NCBI RefSeq assembly: GCF_002591915.1
Contig: NZ_NIHB01000002.1
Location: 62,001 to 126,000 of the forward strand
Length of the DNA: 64,000 nucleotides
Reading direction: 5' to 3'
Source of the DNA: Marinicella litoralis
GTDB taxonomy: Bacteria > Pseudomonadota > Gammaproteobacteria > Xanthomonadales > Marinicellaceae
Below, in pieces: positions 22,811-28,525 of the stretch (position 1 is its first letter; every line of letters starts with the position of its first letter). The position numbers were made by a program, and so were the translations under genes. The notes beneath the pieces are model-generated. The model made no database searches and was not told the DNA's origin. It saw only the letters and a program-made list of their open reading frames with translations.

Positions 22811-24598
22811 TTACTCTTTATTGCTGGCCAAAGAAAACTGTTTTATTTGATCAAGTAAAGCATCTAATCGCTGTTCCAATGAACAGCGATCTTCTTGGCT
22901 TAAATCATCACAAGTCAAAATAAAATGACAGGTTTTTACCACGTTCCTCCACCTGGGATTTTCCGGTATTTTATCAACATCCAAGTACTTGTCCAATGAC
23001 CGAGTACGCAAGGTTCCGTTGTCGATTGAAATGGTCCAAACTTTACTTTTCTCAGCCAGTTCAACCCGGTCGGAACCTGTTGTTTTTTCCCAAATGGCCA
23101 GTGCATCCAATAAAGTAGAAACCAAGTTTACTTTAAACTCTTGTTTTAACGCTGCTGCAGAAACCGGTGTATTCTCATAATTTAAATGAGGACTTTGGTT
23201 TTGCATCAAAAACAACTGCTGTTTGTGGTGTTTGATCGATTGCATTAATACCTTTCTTTCTTTTCGCTTATTGAGAAAATAAGCAAACAAAACAATGGCC
23301 AATATCAAAAAACCAATGATACCGATTAAAATGGTATGGGTTAATTGTTGTAATTTTGCTGATTTGTTGGCATTAATCAGCTGCTCGTTGATCAAGTCAT
23401 GTTGGATTTTTTGTTTTTCAATTTGATGCTTGATGTTATTCAAATCTTCATCATATTTTTCTTTTAAAAACTGCTCTCTACTGGCTTGTTGCAATTGTAA
23501 ATATTCGTATGCCTTGGCCAAGTCTGTTGAACGAAAGAAGCGACTTAACAGCCCATAAAATTGACTGACTTGGTTGCTGTCAGCTGAAGTCATCGCCTGA
23601 GACAGTCCATTTTGTGCCAATTCAATTGCCGGATTGACCAAACCATTTTGAAACTTGACTGATGCTGCATCTAAATAATATTCAAGCCCTAATTCAATGT
23701 CATTGTCTTGGTGAATAGCAGCTGCCTCATCAAAAAACAATTGTGCTGAGGCATATTGCTTTAATCCCAAGTGGTATTTACCAATATTGATCATTGCTCG
23801 AGCTTGCGCCCTGGGTGAGTTTTTCAATTTGAAAGTAGCCACAATTTTTTGTGCATATTTTTGTGCTTCTGTAGCATTGCCAATTTTACTGTGTGCCTTA
23901 CTCAGGTCTTCATAAATGTGTGAAATTTGTTGGTACACCCGTTCGTCAAAAGTTGGTTGTTGGGCATAGTTTAAATATTGATTCAAAGCCTGTTCATAGA
24001 AATCAACGGCCAGTGCATGGTCTTCCAAATCCATATGAACCAATGCAATGTTATTCAACGTTTTACCCACTTGATAAGCATCACCATAAGTTAATTTAAG
24101 GGTTAAACTTTTTTTAAAGTAGTTCAGTGAGTTGACGTAATCATTGAGTTTATAGGCCGTTAAACCCACATCATTAAAGCTTTTACTGAGCCACAATGGA
24201 TTGTGCTCATTTTCCGCCAGGGATAAACCGTGTTGCAAATATTTATCTGCTTTCAAATAGTCACCCAGAAAATAATACTTCTGCCCCACCCGTCGGTTCC
24301 ATTGGTATTGGTATTCAATGTGTTCAACGAACAGTGAGTGACTTTTTATTTTTGCCAAGTAATAAGACTCTTGTTCTGTGTGACCTAATTCGTGGTGAAT
24401 TTCAACTAAATGCAACCAATTATCAATGATGTCTGCTTGGCCTAGCCCCTCTGTGGAAGCCGATTTTTCAACTTCGGATTCGCAAATGGGTAGCGCCTCA
24501 ATGTAGTCGCCGCCTGTGATGGCATCCGCGCATGAAATACTGGCTTGAATAGCAGTGGTGGCAAACAATAAAACACATAAGCTCAGGATATATTTCAT
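22811..24598 (-). CDS. TPR-repeat transmembrane protein with a C-terminal cytoplasmic domain
   Basis: This 595-residue protein has a Sec signal (residues 1 to about 19). About six to seven TPR-like repeats (residues 30-370) follow, including the clear units NDVGLTAYKLNDYVNSLNYF and NNIALVHMDLEDHALAVDFY. A coiled coil comes next, then one membrane helix (about 420-442, ILIGIIGFLILAIVLFAYFL), and finally a basic, Lys- and Trp-containing domain (about 485-590). The layout is that of a sensor: periplasmic TPRs, one span and an intracellular output domain. The C-terminal domain (KVWTISIDNGTLRTRSLDKYL) is not one I can name. There is no kinase or GGDEF signature. It is monocistronic. Confidence 0.7.
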   Translation of the reverse strand: MKYILSLCVLLFATTAIQASISCADAITGGDYIEALPICESEVEKSASTEGLGQADIIDNWLHLVEIHHELGHTEQESYYLAKIKSHSLFVEHIEYQYQWNRRVGQKYYFLGDYLKADKYLQHGLSLAENEHNPLWLSKSFNDVGLTAYKLNDYVNSLNYFKKSLTLKLTYGDAYQVGKTLNNIALVHMDLEDHALAVDFYEQALNQYLNYAQQPTFDERVYQQISHIYEDLSKAHSKIGNATEAQKYAQKIVATFKLKNSPRAQARAMINIGKYHLGLKQYASAQLFFDEAAAIHQDNDIELGLEYYLDAASVKFQNGLVNPAIELAQNGLSQAMTSADSNQVSQFYGLLSRFFRSTDLAKAYEYLQLQQASREQFLKEKYDEDLNNIKHQIEKQKIQHDLINEQLINANKSAKLQQLTHTILIGIIGFLILAIVLFAYFLNKRKERKVLMQSIKHHKQQLFLMQNQSPHLNYENTPVSAAALKQEFKVNLVSTLLDALAIWEKTTGSDRVELAEKSKVWTISIDNGTLRTRSLDKYLDVDKIPENPRWRNVVKTCHFILTCDDLSQEDRCSLEQRLDALLDQIKQFSLASNKE

Positions 24599-24763: not shown

Positions 24764-24973
24764 TCAAGATTGATTTGATTTGGCGTCTGTTGTTTGTATC
24801 AGAGAATGAATTAATGACTGCCAATAAAAAGAGCCGAATTGCTCGGCTCTGATTTTTCTATTGAAGGATTGTTTATCCTTTTGACGTTTGGCTTTATTGG
24901 ATTTTCCATGCACACCACCTTTTCTCATGATGGCGGCTTTGGCCGTCCAGTTCCGCCGCTTTAATTCTTGCAT
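24764..24973 (-). CDS. ArfA-like small basic protein with a terminator inside its reading frame
   Basis: The 69-codon frame starts at an ATG with GGAG eight bases upstream. Its first 42 residues are strongly basic (KRRNW, MRKGGVHGKSNKAKR), and its MRKGGVHG resembles the MRKGKHG of E. coli ArfA, the alternative ribosome-rescue factor that recruits RF2 to nonstop complexes. A perfect eight-base hairpin plus T tract lies inside codons 42-50 on the coding strand. Terminated transcripts would therefore lack a stop codon and give a product of about 48-50 residues. This is the same tmRNA-controlled nonstop design known for arfA. The N-terminal part before MRKG is shorter than in E. coli, so a different rescue factor or an unrelated basic protein remains possible. 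Confidence 0.55.
   Translation of the reverse strand: MQELKRRNWTAKAAIMRKGGVHGKSNKAKRQKDKQSFNRKIRAEQFGSFYWQSLIHSLIQTTDAKSNQS
24826..24850 (-). terminator. intrinsic terminator inside the arfA-like coding sequence
   Basis: On the minus strand the stem AGAGCCGA/TCGGCTCT (eight perfect pairs, five-base loop) is followed directly by TTTTATT. The plus strand also has GATTTTT after the stem. It lies 60 bases upstream of the frame's stop codon, not after it. Confidence 0.75.
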
Positions 24974-25040
24974 ACAGCGCTCCGGTTAAATTCATTATAA
25001 TTGTAAAGCCATAACATGAATAAGGTCTGAATTAAATCCA

Positions 25041-25071
25041 ATCATTGAGACCTTAATCAGGTCTCAATGAT
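25041..25071 (-). repeat. 13-bp perfect inverted repeat downstream of the S41 protease gene
   Basis: ATCATTGAGACCT (25041-25053) and AGGTCTCAATGAT (25059-25071) are perfectly complementary around a five-base loop, nine bases after the protease stop. There is no T tract on either strand, so it is not a standard terminator. It may act as an mRNA 3' stabiliser or a protein site. Confidence 0.55.
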
Positions 25072-25080
25072 GTTTAAAGC

Positions 25081-28000
25081 TTAAAAGTCTTTCGGTGCAG
25101 GTGGAGACTTGATGGTTGACCTTGGGTTAGTCGCCAGGTCTTTCATTAACTCTTCAACGGCCCGTTCAATTGACGGGTCATGACCAGCGGCAATTAATTC
25201 AGGTCGATCAATTACTTCTATATCAGGAGTTACCCCTTCGTTTTCTACCGCCCAATTACCGTCTGTGTCCATAAAACGGAATGTTGATGCCAAAATTGAA
25301 CCGCCATCGGCCAATCCAGGATTGCCGCTGATGCCAATCAAACCACCCCAAGTTCTGGTTCCAATGATTTTTCCTAAACCGGCTTTGCGGAAATAATAAG
25401 GTAAGGCATCACCACCTGAACTGGATTGTCCATTGGTTAACATCACTTTGGGGCCATCATGAGCAATCAAGGGTGTGGCATTGCTGTCCAAGTCTAAACC
25501 ACGACGCTTCCAGTAATTCACAGTTTTTCTGGAGAGTAATTCAATCATGCGGTCTGGAATAAAACCACCACCGTTATAACGGTCATCGATAATCAGTGCG
25601 TCCTTACCAATTTGTGGCAACATTTGTTTAAACAATTCTCGGTTACCATCACCTGCCGTGTTGGGTAGATGTACATAACCAATTCTGCCACCTGACAATT
25701 GGTTAACCATGGCTTTGCGTGAGTTCACCCAATCCAAATAACGCAATTGGCTTTCAGAACTGATCGGCTTAACAAAAACCTTTCTGGCTCCTTTTTTATC
25801 GGATTTTTGATTCAACTCCAAGGCAATGGTTCGGTCCGCCTTGTGTTCCAATAATTGATAAATATTGGCTACGGATTGTGTATTGATGCCATCAATAGCA
25901 ATCACAAAGTCTCCTTCATTGGCTACAACGCCTGCTTCAGTTAAAGGTGACCTTCTGGATTCAGTCCAATTCTCTCCTGCAAATATTTTAGTGATTTCAA
26001 AATAGCCACTTTTATGCTTTTTAAACTCAGCGCCTAACAATCCATTGGACTGCCTTTTAACTGAAGGTTGGTCGCCCGAATTGACATAGATATGACCTGC
26101 ATTCATTTCACCTGCTATTTCACCAAACACATAATCTAAATCTGTTCGGTGGGTCGCTGCAGCAGCCATTGGCAGGTATTTGTCATGAATGGCTTGCCAA
26201 TCATTACCATGCATTCCTGGATCATAAAACCAATCACGCAAGATTCTCCAAGCATCGGTGTACATTTGTTGCCATTCAGTGCGAGGATCCACTTTCATGG
26301 TCAAGTGTTTCAAATCAATTTTATCTTTAAGTTTTTGTTCTGCAGCGGCTTTCACCACCCCATAATCTCGGCCCTTTTGAACCAAAAGGTGCTTACCATC
26401 AATCGACAAACTGTAATTACCTACACCAGCAATGACTGTTTTGATTTCATTCTCAGTCAGATCTATGATTTTCAATGCAGTACCGTTGTTGCCATTTTCA
26501 ACCACAAAAACCGCATCGCCATTACTTTGTACATTGTTGTAGTTACCTGCATCGCCAGGCAAGGCCACTACCCTGTTATCAAACCCTGCAAAATCAATGT
26601 CAACTTTAACGGTCTCTTTTTTGTCTTTTTCTTCATCGATTTGATTTTTTGAGGCTTCAAAGGGAAACAAAGCAGGTGATTGGTTATTCAATTGTGCAGC
26701 ATAGACTCTGGTGGCATTGTTGTATAAATAATTAAACTCATAGCTGCTGAAAGTTAAATTATAATCACGGTTAGACAAGAAAAATAAATAGTGCCCATTG
26801 GGATCAAATACAGGTGAAAAATCATTGAAATCCGCGCTGGTCAATCGATTGGTTTGTCCACCTTGTAGGTCATGGACGAAAATTGAATTGAATCCTGTGT
26901 TTTCGGTTTTGGTATATACCAACCAAGCGCTGTCTGGAGACCAACTGTAATCGGTGATGTCATTGCGCTTGGAACGATCTATTTTATTGATTTTCTTGTC
27001 ATTAACATCAACCACCCAAAGGGTTTGGTTGGTGTCTGAAAATGCCAATTTTTGGCTATCCGGAGACCAAACAGGTGTATAACGCCAAGTGTGACCGTCA
27101 TCCGTTAATTGTTTAACCCGTCCTGATTTGATGTTTTTGGTGTACAGTTCGTACTCCCCCGTTTCATCACTCAAATAAGCCACACTTTTGCCATCTGGTG
27201 ACCAGCTGACATCTATTTCTCTGGCTCCCGGTGTGCGACTGAATTCACGAATTTCATTGTTTTTTGTACTCGCTTTGAACAACTCTCCGCGTGCCGCAAT
27301 CATCAATGATTCGGCATCTGGTGAAAGTGCCATTGATTCAATCATGTCTTTGACATTCTTGCGTGTTGCAATCAATGATTCTTGATTGGCTGTTACTGTA
27401 ATATTAAGTTGTTTGCTGGTTTTGGACTGAGGGTCAAAACGCCACAAATGGCCACCATTTTCATAGACTATGGCTTCTGGCCCAGCAGATGCCCACAAAG
27501 AATCATAAAGATTGTGGTTAGTTACTTTCTCTGGTGAACCATTTTCTACATAACGGTATAAATTGAGGTTGTAATCACGGTCACTGATAAAATAGATTTC
27601 ATCGCCTACCCAAACAGGTTGATGGTCAGAAGCCTCATGGGTGGTTAATTGTTTACTGGTATTGTTTTCCAAGTCATAAGTCCAAATGTCTTGAGCCCTA
27701 CCACCACGGTACCTTTTCCAAGTTCTGAATTCTCTGTCCTTGGGGGTATATACCAAATGTTTACCATCTGGGGACAACATACCACCACCGGCCTCTGGTA
27801 CGGCCAAAGGTTTTTCCATACCACCAGCCACTGGAACCCAATAAGGTTGGCCCATGCGTATTCCCCAAGGCAAACGATTGGCCCTGACCAAAATGTGTTT
27901 ATCGTCCACTGACCAATCTAAAATTCGATAATCAAATCCGCCCCGTGGTGGCATCGGCCCCACATCGTTGTACCAAGTCAATTGAGTCAGGTCACTGCCA

Positions 28001-28302
28001 TCTGCGTTCATCACATAGACTTGTCTTGAACCCGTATATTCAGCAGTGAATGCAATTTTTTTGCCGTCACGAGAAAATTTAGGAAAAGCTTCAAAACCTT
28101 CATGCGCTGTTAACCTCTTGGCCACACCATCAGTAACAGCAGCCGTATAGATATCACCGGCATAAACAAAAGTGACTTGATCCCGATGAATGTCAGCAAA
28201 CCTAAGTAACTTTGTATCAGCTGCTACTTCGAAACACATAAAGACAGCAATTAATAGCAATAGGATGGTTTTGTGGTTTTGTCTTGGTAATTCGTGGTTC
28301 AT
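25081..28302 (-). CDS. exported tricorn-protease-like S41 peptidase
   Basis: This 1073-residue exported protease has a Sec signal (residues 1 to about 27, ending FEVAAD). A long PD40 beta-propeller region follows (many units like SPDGKSVAYLSDETGEYELY and SPDSQKLAFSDTN). Then come the C1 region (TDAWRILRDWFYDP), a PDZ domain (near 790-860) and the S41 core with the nucleophile in NGQSSSGGDALPY (near Ser960). The start is the ATG at 28302 with GGGGA eight bases upstream; the frame stays open to 28425 but without support. Tricorn-like enzymes degrade oligopeptides. The export signal implies a periplasmic role, unlike archaeal tricorn. Confidence 0.88.
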   Translation of the reverse strand: MNHELPRQNHKTILLLLIAVFMCFEVAADTKLLRFADIHRDQVTFVYAGDIYTAAVTDGVAKRLTAHEGFEAFPKFSRDGKKIAFTAEYTGSRQVYVMNADGSDLTQLTWYNDVGPMPPRGGFDYRILDWSVDDKHILVRANRLPWGIRMGQPYWVPVAGGMEKPLAVPEAGGGMLSPDGKHLVYTPKDREFRTWKRYRGGRAQDIWTYDLENNTSKQLTTHEASDHQPVWVGDEIYFISDRDYNLNLYRYVENGSPEKVTNHNLYDSLWASAGPEAIVYENGGHLWRFDPQSKTSKQLNITVTANQESLIATRKNVKDMIESMALSPDAESLMIAARGELFKASTKNNEIREFSRTPGAREIDVSWSPDGKSVAYLSDETGEYELYTKNIKSGRVKQLTDDGHTWRYTPVWSPDSQKLAFSDTNQTLWVVDVNDKKINKIDRSKRNDITDYSWSPDSAWLVYTKTENTGFNSIFVHDLQGGQTNRLTSADFNDFSPVFDPNGHYLFFLSNRDYNLTFSSYEFNYLYNNATRVYAAQLNNQSPALFPFEASKNQIDEEKDKKETVKVDIDFAGFDNRVVALPGDAGNYNNVQSNGDAVFVVENGNNGTALKIIDLTENEIKTVIAGVGNYSLSIDGKHLLVQKGRDYGVVKAAAEQKLKDKIDLKHLTMKVDPRTEWQQMYTDAWRILRDWFYDPGMHGNDWQAIHDKYLPMAAAATHRTDLDYVFGEIAGEMNAGHIYVNSGDQPSVKRQSNGLLGAEFKKHKSGYFEITKIFAGENWTESRRSPLTEAGVVANEGDFVIAIDGINTQSVANIYQLLEHKADRTIALELNQKSDKKGARKVFVKPISSESQLRYLDWVNSRKAMVNQLSGGRIGYVHLPNTAGDGNRELFKQMLPQIGKDALIIDDRYNGGGFIPDRMIELLSRKTVNYWKRRGLDLDSNATPLIAHDGPKVMLTNGQSSSGGDALPYYFRKAGLGKIIGTRTWGGLIGISGNPGLADGGSILASTFRFMDTDGNWAVENEGVTPDIEVIDRPELIAAGHDPSIERAVEELMKDLATNPRSTIKSPPAPKDF

Positions 28303-28525
28303 TATTGTGGTCCCCAAAATGATGATGTAATAAATGATGAAGAATTTTAACATCAAAGCATCTACTGTACACAGGCCAAAAGTATCAGTCTCAGTGTTTC
28401 TTAGGCTCACATTCATATCTGTCACGAGTCCTGTCTTTATGGTATGAACTGTTTTGATAAGTTCACAAAGTAAAAAAACTTACATCCTTCATTGGACTCA
28501 CTTTTTTATAGGTAGCAATCAAATA

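Follow-up and report, generated by a model that had tools for sequence, protein, structure and literature searches.

A small basic gene apparently built for a stop-less mRNA, with rtcB as a frequent neighbour, in Marinicella and other Gammaproteobacteria

Nonstop regulation has been described for the ribosome rescue factors ArfA and BrfA, whose products appear when trans-translation fails (PMC8012679, PMC6881298). ArfA (PF03889) is a small basic protein of Gammaproteobacteria; its gene places a hairpin inside the frame, ahead of the stop codon, and the mRNA is therefore stop-less. Escherichia coli arfA is reported to use both a terminator and RNase III (PMC8012679). The Bacillus subtilis gene brfA also has an intrinsic terminator within the frame, and its product of about 62 residues is unrelated to ArfA; a Lys-His contact is reported to be common to both proteins. 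In the accessible part of that report BrfA is confined to Bacillaceae and a link to rtcB is not mentioned (PMC6881298). ArfT of Francisella has about 40 residues, includes the sequence KKGGSTNKK near its C terminus, recruits RF1 or RF2, and is reported to lack an in-frame terminator (PMC6299226). In another described system, found sporadically in bacteria, an rtcB-type RNA ligase gene is followed by a translation-rescue gene (PMC9223846, PMC6514570): the GGQ hydrolase PrfH frees the peptide from ribosomes cut in the 16S rRNA and RtcB2 reseals the cut (PMC9223846). Burroughs and Aravind also noted uncharacterized charged proteins next to RFH-RtcB operons (PMC6514570). According to two of these papers, more release-factor-dependent rescue factors may exist, and sequence similarity alone may miss them (PMC6881298, PMC8012679).

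The 64,000-nucleotide stretch of the Marinicella litoralis genome analysed here (the window; contig NZ_NIHB01000002.1) includes a 69-codon ORF that looks built for a stop-less mRNA, like arfA and brfA (Table 1). Its product is probably an alternative ribosome rescue factor, small and basic, from an apparently undescribed family; the rescue activity is what we infer. The hairpin, AGAGCCGA-GCAAT-TCGGCTCT followed by TTTTATT, occupies codons 42-50, and the sequence agrees with the preliminary description, which had reported an eight-base hairpin with a T tract at these codons of a 69-codon frame preceded by a good ribosome binding site. A basic product of about 50 residues had also been proposed; up to the hairpin it has 15 K/R and 3 D/E residues and a predicted pI of 11.5. 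Inspection of the product sequence did not find the GGQ catalytic motif that characterizes the PrfH and ArfB hydrolases. A helix is predicted at residues 27-46 (AlphaFold2; mean pLDDT 70, pTM 0.35) in a model that is weak overall and too uncertain for a fold search. Purine-rich sites like the GGAG of the window are present in most homologues, and TATAAT or a near match is also found upstream of the small gene in L008, L009, L011 and L015. Just past the tricorn-protease gene, an inverted repeat of 11 bp with hardly any T tract (25042-25070) is probably the terminator of that gene. Downstream of the small gene there is an ORF of 595 amino acids (22811-24598, minus strand), with relatives in the same place in L109 and L111.

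Table 1. Features of the small gene and its surroundings (positions within the window)
Feature	Coordinates	Strand	Basis or remark
69-codon ORF	24764..24973	-	ATG start; codons past about 50 expected to be missing from the mRNA
Predicted stop-less coding mRNA, about 50 codons	24823..24973	-	Hairpin position
Conserved core, codons 7-40, RN..A......KGG.H.KS.KAKR...KQ	24854..24955	-	Alignments A1 and A2
Terminator hairpin within the frame, 8 bp and 5-nt loop	24830..24850	-	Sequence; covariation in homologues
T tract TTTTATT, in frame, 3' of the hairpin	24823..24829	-	Sequence
GGAG ribosome binding site, ATG 6 nt on	24980..24983	-	Sequence
Candidate -10 element TATAAT	24994..24999	-	No clear -35; absent from promoter scan output
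Tricorn-type protease, upstream neighbour	25081..28425	-	Pfam PDZ_Tricorn, Tricorn_C1, Peptidase_S41

Four terminator-like sites are found in 3 kb of the window, against 3.2 +/- 2.0 in shuffled sequences. The terminator score of the ORF is reached by 9 of 200 synonymous shuffles, and none of 300 codon shuffles folds as stably. Taken alone the window hairpin is only moderately improbable, and therefore its conservation in homologues was examined; this comparison is decisive for a terminator in frame. Homologues were picked by the protein core and the hairpin played no part in the choice. A search with the first 46 residues matched 20 of 61 genomes in 2 of 25 genera, both belonging to the window's own family, which gave 20 family-level homologues, window included. 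When genome contigs were scanned with the whole ORF five loci were detected, four from Marinicella and one from a gammaproteobacterium, and order-level searches of 4 and 13 genomes returned one match each, the centre genome itself. One genome (G021) carries a second family copy, L072, which is partial and interrupted by an in-frame TAA.

A scan for unbroken stems located a terminator in frame in 19 of the 20 homologues, ending at codon 46-56 and with the stop codon 3-39 codons later. For the twentieth, L015, the site picked by the scan is weak and unrelated, being equalled by 36 of 200 shuffles, and folding showed the stem of the others, its loop enlarged by an insertion. No stop codon precedes the hairpin in any of the 20, and codon-shuffle folding gave p<=0.05 for all except L113 (p=0.053). 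Sixteen stems could be aligned free of gaps, with L015, L020, L021 and L025 omitted because of their different geometry. In this alignment 99.2% of the cells are paired, both sides changed in four of the eight pairs (matched by 9 of 500 shuffles) and the covariation score was reached by none of 500 shuffles; since the sequences are related, these shuffle counts are not readable as probabilities. Compensatory changes include GAGCC/GGCTC, GGGCC/GGCCC and GGACC/GGTCC, and further pair types did not rise (6 versus 7.6 in shuffles).

Purifying selection acts on the core in this frame and in neither of the others: pN was below pS in 189 of 190 pairs, the remaining pair being identical, and the median pN/pS was 0.29, compared with 1.6 and 1.3 for the alternative frames. 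The tails past the hairpin are unlike even between identical cores (L022/L023), with local scores that have a median of 10 and a maximum of 25 (L006/L020), as should be expected of a protein translated only as far as the hairpin. A chance ORF or a chance hairpin was ruled out by the selection on the frame, the conservation and covariation of the hairpin, and the codon-shuffle folding. These same results bear out the preliminary description in its central claim, a nonstop-mRNA gene with an arfA-type layout. It had proposed to test whether the hairpin keeps its place inside the frame of homologues, and this is the case in 19 by scan and in L015 by folding.

A profile built from the 20 close members (A1) matched 27 of 369 sampled gammaproteobacterial genomes at E<=0.01, one of them falsely (L052, an ankyrin-type protein). 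A second profile made in part from the class-wide matches of the first (A2) matched 28 of 369 at E<=0.001, distributed in 25 of 272 genera and including one weak match found with A2 only (G343/L103, a 28-residue frame). L052 and the weak match were dropped from later counts. The family, present in about 26-28 of the 369 sampled genomes, has the pattern R-N-x2-A...K-G-G-x-H followed by a basic helix, and the KGG-x-H element is invariant. An in-frame hairpin was detected at a codon-shuffle p<=0.05 in 14 of 25 testable class-wide loci, when about 1.3 would be expected, and not in the other 11; L133 and L148, in which the motif is missing, were left out. The layout occurs with unrelated stem sequences in 12 families. 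Hairpins without a T tract are found in L030, L031, L032, L035 and L046. Two of the 14, loci L029/L128 and L037/L136 from two families, have T-poor hairpins of 19 pairs with the same shape (12 bp, a 1x1 mismatch, 7 bp and a 3-nt loop) and unrelated sequence, which look like RNase III substrates. Ordinary stop codons with no significant in-frame hairpin are found in L036, L040 and L104 (family f154) and in L041 and L047 (family f13). L036 has a terminator 39 nt past the stop codon, and in L104 the sole low p falls in the core region. Hairpins lying past the stop codon or absent, named beforehand as evidence against the stop-less reading, thus occur only in these distant branches, and in none of the 20 close homologues. 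In genome G314 a second family copy, L104/L152, is a full ORF adjoining rtcB.

The family is apparently undescribed. Searches of Pfam and NCBIfam with 30 members each (20 close and 10 class-wide; E<=1) gave weak unrelated matches only, and those at 0.02-0.15 were taken as chance, as were a match to tachylectin-2 in the PDB (E 0.0034 with A1 and 1.3 with A2) and one of a single member to PHROG 19671 (E 0.011). A phage or plasmid origin was rejected: tblastn of two members against phage and plasmid collections gave no match at E<=0.01, and a scan of viral contigs with A1 gave 39 pattern matches that included no relative.

The gene neighbourhoods were compared using larger stretches from 46 loci and the window (47 loci). 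A full-length rtcB gene, identified from a 399-amino-acid neighbour (Pfam E 1.4e-130), is located directly upstream on the same strand and 20-170 nt away in 15 of them. In seven further loci it is one gene away, the intervening gene always belonging to a family of about 318 amino acids, which brings the count to 22 of the 47 loci, in 8 of the 19 families; L127, with rtcB 3.3 kb downstream, was excluded. Three more loci have fragments: in L138 rtcB is in two pieces, with the middle gone and the ~318-amino-acid gene between them, and L141 and L143 retain only its last 40-52 codons. The order in L143 is arfB (NF006718, 191.6 bits, cut-off 100; ~570-150 nt upstream of the small gene), the rtcB C-terminal fragment and the small gene, as if arfB had arrived where rtcB had been. 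This arfB is the one release-factor-like gene, and not prfH, that a six-frame search for the GGQ motif detected in the 47 neighbourhoods. In 22 loci, window included, no rtcB or fragment of it was found upstream within the stretch covered; some of these stretches are short, and for L121, L125, L133 and L137 they reach 0.2-2 kb upstream. A tricorn-protease gene precedes the small gene in the window, L107, L108, L119 and L125, and in L109, L110, L111 and L122 rtcB comes between the two. The simplest reading of these arrangements would be that rtcB was lost in the lineage of the window; the opposite order of events is possible. Between rtcB and the small gene, L113 and L114 have palindromic repeats, ATTCCTGCG...CGCAGGAAT, that resemble small mobile or REP-like elements.

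The ~318-amino-acid family is present in 11 of the 47 loci (L115, L116, L118, L124, L128, L131, L134, L135, L138, L147 and L152), at a distance of about 1 kb on the upstream side of the small gene; the member in L128 is upstream of rtcB, and those in L131 and L147 adjoin the small gene with no rtcB nearby. The invariant residues of this family lie around EEVQSDW and PPKSLYTKLP, and the family was unmatched in Pfam (two members), NCBIfam (two members), the PDB (profile of eight) and plasmids (one member). Among 27 class-wide loci, linkage to rtcB, a fragment of it or the ~318-amino-acid gene is found in 11 of 14 that have an in-frame hairpin versus 4 of 13 that do not (Fisher p 0.02, with two untested loci scored as hairpin-free and the kinship of loci ignored). 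The rtcB linkage, which is not visible from the letters of the window, is the stronger clue to a rescue function.

The genome of the window encodes a full-length tmRNA and ArfB, and the Pfam ArfA model matches nothing in it. In 33 family genomes the new gene and ArfB are not mutually exclusive: five have both, five ArfB only, 15 the new gene only and eight neither. Within one genus with four genomes, three have ArfA without the new family and the fourth shows the reverse, which may reflect a single event. Across the class sample the family and ArfA, the latter present in six of 369 genomes, do not overlap, which is uninformative because only 0.5 would be expected by chance.

The preliminary description had offered either a divergent ArfA branch or a separate rescue factor using the same regulatory trick, and the second is the best-fitting option. 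That the family belongs to ArfA as a distant, strongly diverged branch is highly improbable, despite the shared regulatory layout and the complementary presence within one genus. The segment MRKGGVHG had been likened to the ArfA core, and it does briefly resemble the MRKGKHG of ArfA; the resemblance did not extend to profile homology. Pfam ArfA had no match among the 20 close members at E<=1, hhalign against an ArfA alignment of four sequences only gave 3.3% over 14 columns with the broad profile and 0.6% with the close one, and the family profile retrieved no ArfA chain from the PDB whereas the ArfA profile did. The KGKGSY signature of the ArfA rows is replaced in the family by KGG-x-H, the N-terminal part is shorter and rtcB is a frequent neighbour. 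The same PDB search (E<=10) returned no BrfA chain, the presence of one in the PDB being unconfirmed; by analogy, the invariant KGG-x-H of the family recalls the Lys-His contact of BrfA and ArfA. By eye the ArfT sequence near the C terminus aligns with KKGGVHDKS, a comparison of the motif only, and the window gene differs from arfT in its in-frame terminator. Where full-length rtcB is a close upstream neighbour, in 22 of 47 loci and not in the window itself, the arrangement recalls that of RtcB2-PrfH, but the product has no GGQ, unlike PrfH.

Two other explanations accept the family and differ on the meaning of the hairpin or of the product. The hairpin could be a plain gene or operon terminator, the true product being read through to the downstream stop codon with an overlap of no regulatory meaning. 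In rtcB-linked loci it would double as the operon terminator, the site in the window is not especially unusual when considered alone, and relatives such as L036 have an ordinary stop codon and then a terminator; yet in all 20 close homologues no stop codon lies ahead of the hairpin, and 12 families share the layout with stems of unrelated sequence. Furthermore, the sequence past the hairpin is not conserved, therefore no selected product needs the tail, and this explanation is improbable. A better case, still an unlikely one, can be made for a nonstop-encoded product with a role other than promoting peptide release: it would regulate or sense the status of trans-translation, or act as an RtcB partner (a ligase cofactor or an adaptor to the 30S subunit). 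The linkage to rtcB and to the ~318-amino-acid family agrees with it, a product so basic should bind RNA, and ArfB is already present in the genome of the window. However, the known genes with such a layout, arfA and brfA, encode rescue factors in the reports cited above, and a pure RtcB cofactor is difficult to reconcile with the retention of the small gene where nearby rtcB is absent (the window, L107, L108, L119 and L125) or a fragment (L141 and L143), unless rtcB is elsewhere in the genome.

We therefore return to the alternative rescue factor as the preferred reading. The mRNA would end at the intrinsic terminator inside the frame, or in some relatives probably at an RNase III hairpin, and every ribosome translating the small gene would stall at its stop-less end. 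With tmRNA-SmpB working, the product would be tagged and destroyed; with trans-translation failing, it would be made, bind stuck ribosomes and recruit a release factor to them. Since the product is basic, lacks GGQ and has a predicted helix, recruitment of RF1 or RF2 would be the natural mechanism. The frequent place of the gene behind rtcB suggests that the need for the factor arises with RNA cleavage, and rescue and RNA repair may then be deployed together. It is possible, and we propose it tentatively, that the genes form a separate family of release-factor-recruiting rescue factors, scattered in Gammaproteobacteria, co-encoded with RtcB and often with the ~318-amino-acid protein, and autoregulated by a stop-less mRNA. 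Repair and rescue would thus form a single module, self-activated once trans-translation is overwhelmed, using recruitment where RtcB2-PrfH uses a dedicated hydrolase.

Among the titles and opening portions of abstracts of the open-access literature, a collection with few subscription papers, none reports a gene for a stop-less mRNA next to rtcB. The regulatory strategy as such is known; what appears new is the family together with its RNA-repair partner. The family is a concrete one recognised by its regulatory anatomy, and its features provide a search recipe: small basic ORFs with a conserved core that ends at an in-frame hairpin. If the reading is right, it would represent one more case in which the stop-less trick is used independently, tied here to RNA repair by RtcB.
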